A stretch of 7,837 bases of DNA, taken from the NCBI GenBank assembly GCA_024278345.1, contig JAJRTK010000394.1, forward strand, positions 1 through 7,837, given 5' to 3'. Each line of letters starts with the position of its first letter. Position 1 is the stretch's first letter. A program made the position numbers and the translations under genes. Positions 2,447 through 7,837 of the stretch are shown here, piece by piece. The DNA comes from a bacterium. GTDB taxonomy: Bacteria; CSSED10-310; JAJRTK01. Below the pieces are notes generated by a model, which worked only from the letters and a program-made list of their open reading frames with translations, did not search any database and was not told the origin of the DNA.

Positions 2447-3127
2447 ATGAAACTGCGACACCCCTGGAGGCTCCTGCTGGTCGTTCTTGCAGGCAGCGCA
2501 TCGATGGTCATGGCTCAGTCGGACGGTTCAGGTGCCGTGCAGAGTTTTCCGGTGAATCGTCTGTCGGCGGAGGCGGCTCGGCAGCAGTTTGCCAACGAGC
2601 CCACCTTGCAACAGGTTTTCCTTTTGGCGGCGGAGCACGCGGATCTTCGTGTGGATCGGATCCGTTCGTGGATGAAGAAGGCGAGCAAGCGAAACCTATG
2701 GCCGGAGCTGAAGCTCAACGCGGACTGGACGGGTCAGGACAATAAGTCGGTCTCGGATACTTATTCGATTCGTGAGGATCCGGATCGGACGATCATCGGG
2801 CCGCCAGATGCCACCATCGCGGACAATAACCGTTGGAATGTGGATCTCACCATGACCTGGGATCTGAATGCGATTATCTTGGATCGGGCAGCGGTGAAGG
2901 ACATGACGCTGACGGCCCAGCGGGTATTGAAGATGCGAAACGAGTTGTTGACACAGGTGAGCGGCCTCTATTCGGAGCGGCGGCGCCACCAGATCGAGCT
3001 TGCGATGCTGGCGCCCTCCGATGAGCTTGTGAAGGCGGAGAAACAGCTCCGGATCGATGAGCTGACGGCGCAGCTCGATGTCCTGACGGGCGGCAAATTC
3101 TCCAACATGACTGGAGGAGGCAGATGA
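2447..3127 (+). CDS. Exported half-length TolC-like protein
   Basis: This 226-residue protein has a clear Sec signal peptide (WRLLLVVLAGSASMVMA, probable cleavage before Q24). The mature part resembles one half of an outer-membrane efflux (TolC) protein. A helix at 53-82 is followed by the strand-like WPELKLNADWTGQD (85-98), a loop, a second strand WNVDLTMTWDLN (130-141), and a long amphipathic helix ending in the TolC-like EKQLRIDELTAQLDVLTGGKFS. Full TolC proteins contain two such repeats in 400 or more residues, so this is about half size, and channel formation would need more subunits or another architecture. GAGGAG at 2432-2437, nine bases before ATG, supports the start. Its stop overlaps the next start (ATGA), implying translational coupling. 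Outer-membrane or periplasmic location is inferred; assignment to TolC is by pattern only. Confidence 0.75.
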   Translation: MKLRHPWRLLLVVLAGSASMVMAQSDGSGAVQSFPVNRLSAEAARQQFANEPTLQQVFLLAAEHADLRVDRIRSWMKKASKRNLWPELKLNADWTGQDNKSVSDTYSIREDPDRTIIGPPDATIADNNRWNVDLTMTWDLNAIILDRAAVKDMTLTAQRVLKMRNELLTQVSGLYSERRRHQIELAMLAPSDELVKAEKQLRIDELTAQLDVLTGGKFSNMTGGGR

Positions 3128-3558
3128 AACGGGTGGCGAGATTTCTGGCGCTGGCTTTCTGCATGCAGGCCACGGTTGCGCTGGCGGATCTCATCGACAT
3201 CAACCGTGCGTCAAAGAGGGATCTGGAGTCTCTTCCCGGGATCGGCAGGGTTACGGCACAGAAAATCATTGAGCATCGGCCGTACCGGAGGGTGGATGAG
3301 CTTTTGGGGATCGGGCGCTTTGGCCGGAGCCGGCTGGATCGGATCCGTGCTCTGATTACCGTCGGCGACCTGTCGAGATTGCCTGCGCCCAGGCGAGAAA
3401 TCGTTGAGGAAGAAGCGCCGGCGCTTGGGCCGCCGGAAGGGATGGTGGCCATCACAAGCTGGACGACGGGAGAGGTTTTTTACGTGGAAGAGGGCACGAC
3501 GGAGGGTTTCTGTCCTTACACCGGCGTCCGGTGGAAGCTGAGTGGAGGTGGAGAATGA
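3124..3558 (+). CDS. Exported ComEA-like helix-hairpin-helix protein with degenerate ribbon tail
   Basis: The protein has 144 residues. A signal peptide ends at ALA before D22. Residues 25-80 are a tandem helix-hairpin-helix unit of ComEA type: DINRASKRDLESLPGIG, then QKIIEHRPYRRVDELLGIG, then LDRIRALITV. In ComEA this unit binds double-stranded DNA non-specifically during uptake; binding here is inferred from the fold. After a charged linker, the tail (109-137) ends in GFCPYTGVRW, closely matching the tail of the next protein but with Ser and Thr where that protein has its CxxC cysteines, so zinc binding by this copy is unlikely. GGAGG lies just before the ATG, which overlaps the preceding stop. 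The following gene begins in its final codons. No comEC or pilus gene is visible, so a competence role cannot be assumed. Confidence 0.88.
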   Translation: MKRVARFLALAFCMQATVALADLIDINRASKRDLESLPGIGRVTAQKIIEHRPYRRVDELLGIGRFGRSRLDRIRALITVGDLSRLPAPRREIVEEEAPALGPPEGMVAITSWTTGEVFYVEEGTTEGFCPYTGVRWKLSGGGE

Positions 3559-4262
3559 CGGGCCATGGGAGATGGATGCTCTTGTTCCTGGCCATGGGAA
3601 TCTGTTTCGTCGGTTCGGCGACGGGGCAAGAGTTGGAAGATCTGATCGATTCAGATGCTGGATCCGTCGGTGACGTGGATGCGGTCCTGGAAGGTGTTTT
3701 CGGTGGCAGCGGTGTACTGGAGCAACTGGATTCGGTGGACCCGGAAGATATTCTTTCGGAGATCGATGTGGATCGGCCGGATCCCAGTATCCGGTCGTAC
3801 ACTTCGTATGCACCGGTAGCGGGCATGAGCCAGAAGGCGGCGGCGCAGCACCACAAGTTGGTGAACCAGGCTCTCTACGCCCTGGATGCTCGAAAGCGGG
3901 CGTCAGCGGCCCGGGCATTGGGGCGGAACAACGATGTGGTGGCCGGGCCCGTGCTATTGGTGGCGCTTCTGGATCGGAATGCCGGTGTTCGGGAAGCGGC
4001 AGCGGAGGCGCTTCGCAATGTGGGGAACGCGGAGGCCATGGGTGCCCTGCGGTCTGCCTTGAGCCGCGAGGTTGACTCCAAGGCGGCGAAAGACATGAGC
4101 AAGGCGATGTCGGCGATCCTGGAACGGACGGCACCGGGCAAGCCGCTGCCGCAACCTCTGGTCATCGTCTGCCATAGTTGTGGCCGGAAGTTTGCTGTAA
4201 CGCGGGGAATCACGAGCGGCTATTGCCCTTATGACGGCGTGGCCTGGGCGATTGGAAAGTGA
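3555..4262 (+). CDS. Exported HEAT-repeat protein with C-terminal zinc-ribbon-like tail
   Basis: The chosen ATG at 3555 overlaps the previous stop and is six bases after GGAGG, which is better than the in-frame ATG at 3531. It gives 235 residues with a signal peptide (WMLLFLAMGICFVGSATG). Residues 26-75 are acidic and Asp-rich. Residues 104-190 form HEAT/PBS-lyase-type helical repeats, including RASAARALGRNNDVVAGPVL, then LLDRNAGVREAAAEALRNVG and EAMGALRSALSREV; these normally make protein-protein contacts. The tail at 203-231 has C206-x-x-C209 and C224-P-Y-D227, a zinc-ribbon-like pattern with Asp at the usual fourth Cys position. The tail is homologous to that of the preceding protein. A scaffold role in the envelope, alongside the other three products of the operon, is inferred. 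No member of known function is recognised. Confidence 0.85.
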   Translation: MTGHGRWMLLFLAMGICFVGSATGQELEDLIDSDAGSVGDVDAVLEGVFGGSGVLEQLDSVDPEDILSEIDVDRPDPSIRSYTSYAPVAGMSQKAAAQHHKLVNQALYALDARKRASAARALGRNNDVVAGPVLLVALLDRNAGVREAAAEALRNVGNAEAMGALRSALSREVDSKAAKDMSKAMSAILERTAPGKPLPQPLVIVCHSCGRKFAVTRGITSGYCPYDGVAWAIGK

Positions 4263-6949
4263 GCCAAATGCGAAGAGCGATTCTAGGGTCATGCATCATC
4301 TTGCTGGCCGCCGGTTGTGGAGACGACGTAGGCGACAAGCTTGCGGAGCCCGAGTCGAAAAGCGTCCAGGTGGAAAGCTTGCTGGAGGGACTGAGTTACC
4401 CCACGGCGGTAACGGTGGTGGAGTCCGTGGGCGGTGGGCTGGAGGCGGGGCAGGTTTTGGTGGGCTTGGCGGGCAGGACCGGCGCCAATGCCAACGCGAT
4501 TCTGGCCCTGTCTCAGGCCGGGGAATTGCGGAGGTTCGCGGATGGTTCGGTGCGGGATGGCAACGGGATTCCCGCAGTGGACAGGAGCGAAGCGCTGGAT
4601 GCAAGCGGCCCTTTCGTGTCCGTATCGAACTATGCTAACGCCTTGGGGTCAGTGGCTTTTTTCGACGGGAGCGGCGCAATCTCCACGGGAGTTATCAGTG
4701 GAGGAGTGCTAGACGCCAGCGATTTTGGGTTCTCGGTGACGGGCGTGAGGCCGCCCAACGGTTCCATCGTCAACCAGTTGAAGATCACGGCGCAGGTCTT
4801 TTTGTCGCAGCCCGTGGACCCCGAGACGGTGACGCCGATCCGTTTTTGGCTCGACCGGGTGGGCTCGACGCAGGATCCGGAGGGGACGATCTCTATTGCG
4901 GCGGATGGGAAGGCGATGTCCTGGACTCCCGACCAAAACCTGATTCCGGGGATCTCTTATAAGATCAAGGTGCGCACCTCGGTGAAGGACATTTTTGGTA
5001 ACGGGATGGACTCCGATCCTTTTACTCCGGGGCGGCAGCAATTCGAATCGCAGTTCCGGATTTCGGGATCGACGCCGGTCTTGCGGGTAAAGTCGGTGAA
5101 TCCGGAGCACAATGCCAAGAACGTGGCCCGAAATACGCGAGTCTTCGTCAAGTTTTCCACGGGGGTGGACCGAGCCACCGTCACGCCGGAGACTTACATC
5201 GTCTCCATGGGAGGCAAGCCATTGGATGGAGCGATCACGCTCTCTTCGGACAACACGGTGGCAATCTTCGCTCCCGGCGGCCAGTACAATGGGGGATCCA
5301 GGATCGACGTGCGGGTGACCACCGAGGTGACGGACCAGGCGGGCAACCCCTTGGACGCGGAGCCCGGAGGAGGGCCGGACGATTTCGTCAGCCGTTTCAC
5401 CACGGGCAGCGGTTCGGATACGACGGGGCCTGAGGTGGCATCGGTGGATCCCGCCAACGGTTCGACGGCGCCGCCTCAGACGACGGTATCCATCACTTTT
5501 TCCGAGCCTGTGGACCCCACGTCAGTGACAACGAGCGCCGTAAGGCTTGAGCAGGGGGGAACCCGTCTGAATGCAACGCTCAGTCTAAGCAGTGACAATC
5601 GGGTGGTGACGCTGAAACCGAGCTCGAAGCTGGCGGATGGCAAGACGTACGATGTCCTTGTGACAACCGATGTCTTGGATCTGGCGGCAAACTCCTTGAG
5701 CCCTACTTTTCAGTCTAGTTTCGACGTGGCGGCGACGCCGCTGGTCATCAATGAAGTGATCACTGATCCCCAGCGGGATTGGAATGACTCGGGCGGCGGC
5801 AATGGCGTGCCATTCGACGATCAACCGGGAAGCAATGCCGGAGAGATCGGGTCGGACGACGAATGGGTGGAGCTTTTGAACAGTGGCAGCGCCACCTTGA
5901 ACCTACGGAACTGGTCGCTGGAGTTTCGGGACACAAGCCCCAGCGCCCATACCTTGGGATCGGTGCCCGGCGGCACGTTTGAGGTTTATTCGGCCGGCTC
6001 GGTTTCGTCCTTTCCTCCGGGAGCCCGCGTGGTCATCGGCAACCCGTCGGGAACGCTGAACAACGACGTCTATATCGTGCTTCGGGACAACCAGGGAAAC
6101 GAGATTGACGACGTAGAGATCGGCGATGACCCGGAAAACGACGGGAACGGAGACGGCGCTCCGGGGAACGGCGATGGGAATGCCAACTCTACGGCGGATG
6201 AGGCAATCGCCCGGCGTCCTGACGGCATCGACACGAACAATGATGGCCGGGACTTCAACAAGCAGAGAGCGACCATCGGCTCGACGAACAACACCGGTCG
6301 AATGATAGGGGGACCATCTCTTCCGGGTCGAAGCGGAGGAGTCACCGGCATCGCCTTTGGCGGTGAGGCTCCCGACGCGCCAGCCCCGACGAGCCTTCTT
6401 TATTTTGTTTCCAACAGCAATACGGAAGGCGTCGTCGCCATCGACCTGAACGGAGAGGTTTACCAGATCAGCGATTTCCATGATCCTCGGGGCGTGGCTT
6501 GGGTTCCCGGAGAGAGCACTGGGCAGGGTTTTCTTTGGGTGGTTCACGGATCGAGCGAAAGTGGGAACTCGGGAGTCACGCGGATGCGGCTGGAGCCGGC
6601 GGGCAGTGTGGGCTCCGCTGGAACCCGCGTGGCGGTGGGAGCGCCGGACACGAATGCCATGCTGAGCTTCACGGGGCCAGCCTTCCGGGAGCCCGTGGGT
6701 ATTGCCTACGACGCTAGTTTAGGGGCGCTCTTCGTGGCGAATCGCGTCGATGGGACTGTCTTGGAAGTGGAACTTGACGGTAGCGTGAGCCGCATCTTCG
6801 AGACCGATGTCGGCCCCGACTCCCTTTCCTCCATCGCCGTGGGAGAATGGCAAGGCCGGCACGGGATTTTCCTCACGGACAGTGGCGGGGGCAATGTGGA
6901 TTTGGGGGATCCTCCCAGCGGTCGGTTGCTCTTCTTCCCGCTTCCATGA
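4259..6949 (+). CDS. Large lipoprotein with Ig-like, lamin-tail and beta-propeller-like segments
   Basis: This 896-residue protein starts at GTG (overlapping the previous stop) or, equally well, at ATG 4268, which lies eight bases after GGAAAG. The lipobox LAAGC puts the lipidated cysteine at residue 20. Three Ig-like domains of the SbsA/Big_5 type follow at about 157-268, 273-382 and 389-490, with repeated cores such as VDPETVTP, TITLSSDN-like strands and FSEPVDPTSVT. Residues 492-676 are a lamin-tail domain: LVINEVITDP, DEWVELLNSG, NLRNWSLEFRD, then ARRPDGIDTNNDGRDF. An acidic Asp/Gly/Asn stretch at 623-642 may bind calcium. From about 693 to the end, segments like PVGIAYDASLGALFVANR with GTVLEVELDGSVSRIF look like NHL/SMP-type propeller blades. 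A similar segment occurs at 44-95, before the Ig domains. No catalytic motif is seen. Surface or outer-membrane location is inferred. Confidence 0.85.
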   Translation: MSQMRRAILGSCIILLAAGCGDDVGDKLAEPESKSVQVESLLEGLSYPTAVTVVESVGGGLEAGQVLVGLAGRTGANANAILALSQAGELRRFADGSVRDGNGIPAVDRSEALDASGPFVSVSNYANALGSVAFFDGSGAISTGVISGGVLDASDFGFSVTGVRPPNGSIVNQLKITAQVFLSQPVDPETVTPIRFWLDRVGSTQDPEGTISIAADGKAMSWTPDQNLIPGISYKIKVRTSVKDIFGNGMDSDPFTPGRQQFESQFRISGSTPVLRVKSVNPEHNAKNVARNTRVFVKFSTGVDRATVTPETYIVSMGGKPLDGAITLSSDNTVAIFAPGGQYNGGSRIDVRVTTEVTDQAGNPLDAEPGGGPDDFVSRFTTGSGSDTTGPEVASVDPANGSTAPPQTTVSITFSEPVDPTSVTTSAVRLEQGGTRLNATLSLSSDNRVVTLKPSSKLADGKTYDVLVTTDVLDLAANSLSPTFQSSFDVAATPLVINEVITDPQRDWNDSGGGNGVPFDDQPGSNAGEIGSDDEWVELLNSGSATLNLRNWSLEFRDTSPSAHTLGSVPGGTFEVYSAGSVSSFPPGARVVIGNPSGTLNNDVYIVLRDNQGNEIDDVEIGDDPENDGNGDGAPGNGDGNANSTADEAIARRPDGIDTNNDGRDFNKQRATIGSTNNTGRMIGGPSLPGRSGGVTGIAFGGEAPDAPAPTSLLYFVSNSNTEGVVAIDLNGEVYQISDFHDPRGVAWVPGESTGQGFLWVVHGSSESGNSGVTRMRLEPAGSVGSAGTRVAVGAPDTNAMLSFTGPAFREPVGIAYDASLGALFVANRVDGTVLEVELDGSVSRIFETDVGPDSLSSIAVGEWQGRHGIFLTDSGGGNVDLGDPPSGRLLFFPLP

Positions 6950-7277
6950 AGGGGGGCTCCACGCAAAGCGGGACAATGTCGCCGGGGAAAAAACCAGGGA
7001 GCTGCCAAGGACCCGTTGCAATGAAAGGCAACGGGAGGGAACGGAGAAGAGGAAGCGTCCAGTGGACGGTTCCGCCGTTCCCCACCTTCTTGTACGGTAG
7101 GCCTCGCTGATGCTCGGCGTCTCGCGGCGCTTGGCACCACGTTTTCCCTTTTCCTGTTCTGTCCCGCCTTGCGTGGAGACGCCATGAAGGCAAGCCAGCT
7201 ACCGGCGGCCAGCCAAAGGCGGGCGCGAGCTTGACCGTCAACCTGAGCTGCTCATTGGACAGTGGTGGAAGAAACTC
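6950..7277. other. Non-coding gap between the large operon and the ACP operon
   Basis: These 328 bp contain no gene I can support. They are mostly copy B of the dispersed repeat. No T-tailed terminator follows the lipoprotein gene, so the repeat hairpins are the only candidates for ending that transcript. TTGACCGTCAA at 7231-7241 is an inverted repeat with 5-bp arms that could be an operator or a -35 region for the following genes, but no good -10 box is found at the right spacing. Confidence 0.55.
6993..7183 (+). repeat. Dispersed hairpin repeat, copy B
   Basis: Blocks shared with copy A occur in the same order: ACCAGGGAGCT (6993-7003), hairpin arms CCCGTTGC (7012-7019) and GCAACGGG (7028-7035) around an 8-nt AATGAAAG loop, CCCACCTTCTTGTACG (7081-7096) and TGTCCCGCCTTGCGTGGAGA (7160-7179). 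The loop differs from copy A at two positions while the stem is fully kept. Between blocks 2 and 3 copy B has an extra stem: GGGAACGG (7037-7044) pairs with CCGTTCCC (7075-7082), and a CGTCC-AGT-GGACG hairpin (7056-7068) is nested inside. The spacing after the main hairpin is about 38 bp longer than in copy A. Confidence 0.65.
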
Positions 7278-7292
7278 TTGGGAATTTTTTTC

Positions 7293-7538
7293 ATGGCGGA
7301 CTCTTGCGAAATCCTTGCGGCCATTCGGATGGAGCTCCAGAAAAAAGAAGGAATCCCGCCAGACAGAATCCGGCTGGAAAGCTCCCTGTTTGACTTTGGC
7401 TTGAGCTCGGTAAAGCTGGTGGAGCTTCTGATGGTGCTGGAAGAAAAGTTCGATGTGGAGCTTCCCGAGGAGGAAATGGTGGGCATTGAGATGGTGGAGG
7501 AGCTTGTGGCGGCGGTGAATGCGAGGATGAAATCGTGA
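7293..7538 (+). CDS. Acyl carrier protein
   Basis: This 81-residue acidic protein has the ACP four-helix pattern: an N-terminal helix, IPPDRIRLESSLFDFGLSS, the recognition helix VKLVELLMVLEEKFDVELPEE, and a final helix. The phosphopantetheine attachment serine is the second Ser of FGLSSVKLVEL (residue 39 from this start). The classical Asp before it (DSL) is Ser, and the Leu after it is Val, which suggests a specialised ACP rather than the housekeeping AcpP. ATG at 7293 is preceded by GGGAA and a run of T. A TTG at 7278 preceded by GGAAG would add five residues and cannot be excluded. Its stop overlaps the start of the ligase gene by one base (TGATG), so the two products should be made together. 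It likely carries the acyl group activated by that ligase. Confidence 0.92.
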   Translation: MADSCEILAAIRMELQKKEGIPPDRIRLESSLFDFGLSSVKLVELLMVLEEKFDVELPEEEMVGIEMVEELVAAVNARMKS

Positions 7539-7837
7539 TGAGGCGCACTTGGGCTCATGAAACGCTTGTGGAGGGTTTGGTGGGCGCCGCTTCGGAAGCA
7601 CCGGAACGTGGACTGACGTTTCTTCTTCCCGGCCGAGAAGCGGAACGAATCGGGTACGGCGAGCTCCTGAACCGTGCCAAAAAAGCCGCCAAATTCTTCT
7701 CTCAGTGGAAGATCGGACAGGGTGATCGAGTGTTGTTTCTCTCCGGAACGACGCCGGAGTTGGTGGCGGGGATTTTCGGGGCTCTTCTGTTGGGGGCGAT
7801 TCCATGTCTTGTGGCTCCGCCCTCCGGAATTGGTGCA
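7538..7837 (+). CDS. Fatty acyl-AMP ligase-type enzyme, N-terminal part (runs off the window)
   Basis: An open frame of 100 codons starts at ATG 7538, overlapping the ACP stop by one base, with GAGGA about ten bases upstream, and runs to the window edge without a stop. Its translation matches the N-terminus of AMP-forming adenylating enzymes: TLVEGLVGAASEAPERGLTF, then ERIGYGELLNRAKKAAKFF, GQGDRVLFLSGTTPELVAG and IFGALLLGAIPCLVAPP. The early segment and the FGALLLGAIPCLVAPP core resemble fatty acyl-AMP ligases, which activate a carboxylic acid with ATP and hand it to an ACP. Coupling to an ACP gene fits this. The adenylation motifs lie beyond the edge, so substrate and the choice between acyl-AMP ligase and acyl-CoA synthetase are undetermined. 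Confidence 0.88.
   Translation, partial: MRRTWAHETLVEGLVGAASEAPERGLTFLLPGREAERIGYGELLNRAKKAAKFFSQWKIGQGDRVLFLSGTTPELVAGIFGALLLGAIPCLVAPPSGIGA

Follow-up and report, generated by a model that had tools for sequence, protein, structure and literature searches.

A predicted single-repeat TolC-like protein paired with a lamin-tail lipoprotein in an envelope operon of the uncultured phylum CSSED10-310

Introduction

Outer-membrane factors (OMFs) such as TolC and OprM are assembled from protomers with two repeats, each comprising two strands, both around a dozen residues long, a helix H2, a long helix H3 and a helix H4 (PMC8277102). Here we analyze a four-gene operon at positions 2447-6949 of contig JAJRTK010000394.1 (C330 in our numbering; this entire contig of 7,837 nucleotides is referred to as the window), in which the first gene encodes an exported protein, P1, predicted to contain one such repeat, and the fourth a large lipoprotein, P4, whose homologues accompany those of P1 in distant bacterial groups. 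TolC-type channels are thought to stem from internal duplication, and the component folds of the operon are known; the OMF family with one repeat, like its conserved association with a Lamin Tail Domain (LTD) lipoprotein, appears undescribed, with no entry found in Pfam, NCBIfam or the literature searched (subscription journals being mostly outside coverage). Publications on CSSED10-310, and on TolC in connection with lamin tails, ComEA fusions, half-size OMFs or propellers, likewise held no description of the system. The original prediction of a coupled envelope operon of unfamiliar composition, made from the DNA letters alone, still holds.

Like TolC and OprM (Pfam OEP, PF02321), P1 carries an export signal and a pair of strands preceded by H2 and followed by a long H3-like helix and an H4-like one, but it has two strands and one repeat where an OMF protomer has four transmembrane strands and two repeats, its long tunnel helix measures 41 residues against 67 in OprM, and no membrane fusion protein (MFP) or pump partner was noticed in the inspected neighborhoods; in relatives, fusions to a propeller or to a helix-hairpin-helix (HHH) domain occur. 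The second product, P2, resembles ComEA and ComEA-related HHH proteins (PF12836; 2duy) in being small, exported and of the HHH_3 type with a first hairpin LPGIG; it departs from ComEA in a changed second hairpin, in a ribbon-like tail and in being encoded with a half-OMF and an LTD lipoprotein. P4 scores above the Pfam cut-offs for both Big_5 and LTD, as expected of bacterial surface proteins with these domains, whereas here they are predicted to sit inside the six-bladed NHL propeller of a lipoprotein conserved beside half-OMF genes. Propellers of the BNR/Ycf48/PorZ-like class occur at the N-terminus of the first half-OMF gene in relatives; the window operon has none, and genes of the type IX secretion system were not noticed in the inspected neighborhoods. 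A lipoprotein associating with an OMF channel is already known from the 3:3 TolC-YbjP complex of E. coli (PMC13095208); P4 differs as a large Ig/LTD/NHL-propeller protein whose contact with P1 is putative.

Results

The host is a metagenome-assembled genome (MAG) of 6.06 Mb in 550 contigs, grouped by the genome tool into one phylum with seven other genomes: candidate phylum CSSED10-310, a rare uncultured lineage described from soda-lake sediments and Zodletone Spring (PMC8248873). A check of open reading frames (ORFs) in the sequence gave four head-to-tail genes:

2447-3127, plus strand: P1, exported half-OMF ('half-TolC') protein, 226 aa (ORF, homologues, AlphaFold2 model)
3124-3558, plus strand: P2, exported ComEA-like HHH_3 protein with a C-terminal ribbon-like tail, 144 aa (ORF, domain match)
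3555-4262, plus strand: P3, exported HEAT-repeat protein with a ribbon-like tail, 235 aa (ORF, domain match)
4259-6949, plus strand: P4, lipoprotein, 896 aa from GTG 4259 or 893 aa from ATG 4268 (ORF, lipobox, orthologues)

Three 4-nt overlaps had been predicted. Both ATGA junctions (P1/P2 and P2/P3) are confirmed and carry strong Shine-Dalgarno sequences, ctggaggaggcagATGA and gtggaggtggagaATGA; the third is ambiguous, with the GTGA overlap at 4259 possible and ATG 4268 (MRRAILGSCIILLAAGC...) an at least equally good start that would leave a 5-nt gap after P3. By inspection, all four products bear the expected export signals, namely classical signal peptides at the N-termini of P1, P2 and P3 and a lipobox, LLAAGC, in P4. 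Overlaps of 4 nt are ordinary in bacteria; it is not they but the gene set, conserved in other genomes, that goes beyond chance.

P1 belongs to a family of predicted single-repeat OMFs

No Pfam family matched P1 above cut-off, the OEP hit being sub-threshold (E 0.15, 12.3 bits vs 22). A profile of P1 and its phylum homologues (A1), run against about 85,000 species genomes, found 115 relatives, distributed over CSSED10-310, Omnitrophota, Nitrospirota, Myxococcota and other 'Deltaproteobacteria', Elusimicrobiota, a Planctomycetota-labeled bin and further groups; the family is present in 22 of the 386 genomes sampled. The family counts at least 74 members; 74 half-OMF sequences, P1 included, were aligned (A4), and P1 and its 73 aligned homologues all have one OMF-like unit per gene. 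Pfam OEP was matched weakly (E <0.1) by 7 of the 74, at best with E 1.2e-3, and the half-OMF profile matched nothing among PDB sequences.

The AlphaFold2 model of P1 computed from this alignment (m802c9dbcaa3a, pLDDT 83) has the order H-H-E11-E11-H41-H22, with a long loop between the strands, and its topology, H2-strand-strand-long H3-H4, is that of one OMF repeat with the long helix shortened. In Foldseek, OprM/TolC-type channels fill nearly all top ranks (best 7akz, E 0.05, probability 0.99), and VIA-align superposes 151-175 residues of the model, with Z about 5, on one half each of OprM, TolC and others. Because the order of elements fits one OMF repeat, Foldseek ranks OprM/TolC highest and VIA-align matches one half, we consider P1, with moderate confidence, a half-OMF: a single, un-duplicated TolC-type repeat with two β-strands and a shortened helical tunnel. 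The 74 sequences and the model thereby lend support to the half-length TolC-like protein that was first proposed. The two strands map as follows:

2705-2737, plus strand: first amphipathic β-strand of P1, approximate, mature residues 64-74 (AlphaFold2 model)
2825-2857, plus strand: second amphipathic β-strand of P1, approximate, mature residues 104-114, beside the family's invariant Trp (alignment, AlphaFold2 model)

The half-OMF and LTD lipoprotein genes recur together

Gene order, homology, fusions and adjacency could be observed directly, and six architectures were distinguished. In Omnitrophota, Nitrospirota and Elusimicrobiota (i), a BNR/Ycf48-like propeller fused to a half-OMF stands alone; in Myxococcota-type genomes (ii), such a propeller-OMF is followed by an HHH-OMF next to guaA, a 4-nt overlap being frequent. 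One Myxococcota class (iii) has, in each of its five genomes, genes for a propeller-OMF, a plain half-OMF and then a Big_5/LTD lipoprotein; in six CSSED10-310 genomes (iv), a propeller-OMF and an HHH-OMF precede an Ig/LTD/propeller lipoprotein about 1,170 residues long, again often with 4-nt overlaps. In two unrelated genomes outside the window's phylum (v), G275 (with a 4-nt overlap) and G138, the half-OMF gene is directly followed by that of a Big_5/LTD lipoprotein; the window itself (vi) has the order half-OMF, HHH-ribbon, HEAT-ribbon, Ig/LTD/propeller lipoprotein. The constant core of architectures (iii)-(vi) is the half-OMF and the LTD lipoprotein. Seven of the eight phylum genomes have orthologues of both P1 and P4; the eighth (G003) lacks the two alike. 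Such recurrence of the core pair in distant bacterial groups looks like the mark of a real, undescribed cell-surface machine and not of a chance cluster. For a few GC-rich loci (L114, L117 and L120), the start of very long ORFs falls in a spurious frame, and the analysis drew on their C-terminal parts alone.

HHH and half-OMF domains are fused in six phylum relatives, a feature unnoticed in the original prediction; such fusions occur in CSSED10-310 and Myxococcota, and most half-OMF proteins are without HHH. Compared with its CSSED10-310 relatives, the window has the two domains split into separate genes in reversed order, and a propeller-linked half-OMF was found neither on the window contig nor in its own genome (88% complete). 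To judge by these comparisons, the operon in the window has been rearranged and lacks the propeller-linked partner. Derivation of P1 from a propeller-linked half-OMF by loss of the propeller would keep the gene order and is nonetheless doubtful, because those copies have a degenerate LYFxRRRLQ where P1 keeps LYSERRRHQ. Simple fission of an HHH-OMF is insufficient, since the reversed window order also needs rearrangement or separate recruitment. The tree gives P1 no placement (branch 2.43, no supported clade).

Several further genes were seen around the relatives' loci. In four genomes (L051-L054), the relatives' operon has as neighbors pseudopilin-like genes (GspH/PilW type) and a gene for an adenosine-specific kinase (PF04008). 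In the Myxococcota class (L064, L082), inspection showed a membrane protein of about 1,020 aa, ATP/ADP translocase-like with a HEAT-like C-terminus, as well as a cyclic-nucleotide-binding protein, upstream of the propeller-OMF gene, and in many Omnitrophota (L086, L089, L102-L104, L113, L131) a SpoVG-like gene lies directly 3' of it. Two contigs labeled Klebsiella pneumoniae (L087, L117) carry myxobacterial-type genes and probably belong to mislabeled MAGs.

P4 is predicted to be an NHL propeller with inserted Ig-like and lamin-tail domains

P4 is a full-length orthologue of the CSSED10-310 lipoproteins of about 1,170 residues (32-39% identity), with three Ig-like domains instead of five. The domain scan identified three Big_5 domains (3e-44), an LTD (41.4 bits vs the 34.3 cut-off) and only a trace of NHL. 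In VIA-align, six-bladed NHL propellers align with Z 20-21 over 222-236 residues spread across model residues 12-878; with such a span, both chain ends would form one propeller into which the Ig-like domains and LTD are inserted. The six-bladed propeller is a predicted fold that rests on this structural match, which was used because the Foldseek list is dominated by Ig domains. All three kinds of segment proposed earlier for P4 (Ig-like, lamin-tail and propeller) find support, the first two by above-threshold domain matches:

4346-4702, plus strand: N-terminal part of the split NHL-type propeller, approximate (model, structural match)
4730-5707, plus strand: three Big_5 Ig-like domains, inserted in the propeller (domain match, model)
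5708-6124, plus strand: Lamin Tail Domain (domain match, model)
6341-6946, plus strand: C-terminal part of the split NHL-type propeller (model, structural match)

The Ig array resembles S-layer proteins in both Foldseek and sequence. Elsewhere in the same genome (G000:C47 and G000:C400), giant proteins with open frames of ~1,360-1,520 aa contain many lamin-tail-like repeats.

P2 and P3 have homologous ribbon-like tails

The predicted ComEA-like HHH and HEAT assignments of P2 and P3 agree with domain matches (HHH_3, E 4e-13; HEAT_2, 1e-7). The HHH domain of P2 is closest to the Thermus ComEA-related protein 2duy (E 8e-10), with which it has an indel in common that the fused HHH domains lack, and it also matches PsbU; against the NCBIfam ComEA model TIGR01259 it falls far below the cut-off (31 bits vs 152). 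Its first hairpin is canonical (LPGIG) and the second is changed to RFG, while among the fusions the GxG hairpins are lost in myxobacteria and partly changed in CSSED10-310. In addition to the ribbon-like tail predicted for P3, a whole-genome search revealed a homologous tail in P2 (E about 1e-4) that had gone unnoticed:

3448-3555, plus strand: P2 ribbon-like tail, motif reduced to its CPYTG half, homologous to the P3 tail (sequence comparison)
4143-4259, plus strand: P3 ribbon-like tail, CHSCG...CPYDG, fourth Cys missing (sequence comparison)

P3 retains three and P2 one of the four cysteines expected. A true zinc-ribbon motif, CESCG...CPYCG, is present elsewhere in the window genome, and the motifs suggest the zinc ribbon as the parent fold of both tails. 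P3 has no equivalent in the relatives' loci and yielded only generic HEAT matches; among the genomes searched, it is by sequence specific to the window genome.

Discussion

We tentatively favor, at a little under an even chance, the reading that the four genes specify a port or anchor in the outer membrane, equipped with a surface lipoprotein of its own. We infer that the single OMF repeat of P1 would oligomerize, most simply as a hexamer forming a 12-stranded barrel on a short periplasmic helical tunnel, or as three plus three subunits where a second half-OMF gene exists. P4 would be lipid-anchored at the outer membrane and either displayed by the P1 pore or capping it, with its Ig-like repeats and lamin-tail domain on the NHL propeller binding an extracellular or neighboring partner. 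Modules on the periplasmic side may be interchangeable: relatives have a BNR propeller or an HHH domain fused to the half-OMF, and the window has separate HHH and HEAT proteins, probably docking to a common partner via their homologous tails. Any transport by the module is putative. Several observations weigh against this reading. P1 yields weak fold scores (Foldseek E 0.05; VIA Z about 5 with an rmsd of 5-6), a few helical proteins unrelated to OMFs reach equally high values in VIA-align, and none of the 74 family members could be shown to exceed the Pfam OEP cut-off. The P4 model is of moderate confidence (pLDDT 66), and its blades are not mutually recognizable by sequence, blade-to-blade hidden Markov model comparison being not significant. 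Many half-OMF genes in Omnitrophota and Nitrospirota have no adjoining lipoprotein, and neither an export motor nor an adaptor was found beside the conserved module.

The last point bears on an unlikely but still sizeable alternative, a purely structural outer-membrane anchor or surface-layer system in which the half-OMF is a membrane-anchored coiled-coil scaffold that forms no open channel and the lipoprotein serves as an adhesin of the surface or matrix. The shortened tunnel (a 41-residue helix vs 67 in OprM), the failure to find transporter partners in the inspected loci, the S-layer-like Ig array of P4 and the nature of LTD and propeller as typical binding modules all fit such a system; the OMF topology and the two amphipathic strands with a conserved Trp nevertheless suggest a barrel, and the same repeat lines an open conduit in TolC-type channels. 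A surface or matrix role, originally offered beside DNA handling, is the more consistent of the two with the conserved Ig/LTD/propeller partner, yet unproven. An ordinary efflux or type I secretion component with its pump encoded elsewhere would also account for the distant OMF relationship, but the single repeat, short tunnel and propeller or HHH fusions, and the fact that MFP, resistance-nodulation-division and ABC genes were not noticed in the inspected neighborhoods, make it very improbable; there, no periplasmic adaptor or inner-membrane pump was seen, and either could be encoded elsewhere in the genome.

A periplasmic or surface DNA-handling complex, with P2 binding DNA as ComEA does and the half-OMF as a DNA port, is improbable. 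It draws on the proximity of P2 to 2duy, its one canonical PGIG hairpin, the HHH-half-OMF fusion in six relatives and the pseudopilin-like genes adjoining four of those fusion loci; beyond P2 the proposal finds no support, as the majority of half-OMF proteins are HHH-free, the hairpins are degenerate in myxobacterial fusions and show partial changes in CSSED10-310 as well as in P2's second hairpin, the module has no DNA-uptake genes next to it, and the conserved part of the loci showed no comEC-type gene. The same HHH fold also serves protein binding in PsbU. Still less weight can be given to the view that the four genes are co-transcribed without forming one machine, P2 and P3 being unrelated additions beside the P1/P4 pair. 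P3 has no counterpart elsewhere, the HHH indel of P2 follows 2duy rather than the fused domains, and P1/P4-type pairs are found without P2 and P3; these points are opposed by the fusion of HHH to a P1 homologue in six phylum members, by the tail module common to P2 and P3 and by the position of both, with overlaps, between P1 and P4. The joint function once deduced from tight coupling gains from the co-occurrence of P1 and P4 orthologues and from the fusions, and P3 is confined, among the genomes searched, to that of the window; in the gene-neighborhood comparison, the P1/P4 pair recurs in CSSED10-310, the Myxococcota class, G275 and G138, and P3 does not.

Returning to the favored port or anchor, a broader proposal is possible though rather doubtful: that several uncultured phyla have an undescribed class of outer-membrane machine in which an un-duplicated OMF repeat, used singly or as two paralogous half-subunits, makes a short pore displaying or gating a dedicated lipoprotein with Ig and lamin-tail domains inside an NHL propeller, the repeat also representing the state expected before the TolC duplication. 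A widespread one-repeat family, often with two adjacent paralogous halves, would make the TolC ancestor testable and define a new assembly of the outer membrane. In the conserved lamin-tail/propeller lipoprotein such tests have a concrete partner, and bacterial lamin-tail domains gain a conserved envelope context through the pairing. MasABK of Myxococcus, considered as a related system, proved unrelated.

Flanking sequence

Upstream of the operon, the gene at 1533-2150 encodes an eCIS_core/DUF4157-type domain (E 1e-5) with an HELTHVWQ motif. A REP-like interspersed palindrome, CCCGTTGCAAYGAARGGCAACGGG, occurs at 58-81 and 7012-7035 of the window and in 131 copies in the genome (at most two mismatches), against 0 for the reversed control pattern. 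Within 7278-7837, an acyl carrier protein gene is followed by an acyl-activating-enzyme-like gene that the contig end cuts off after its start.

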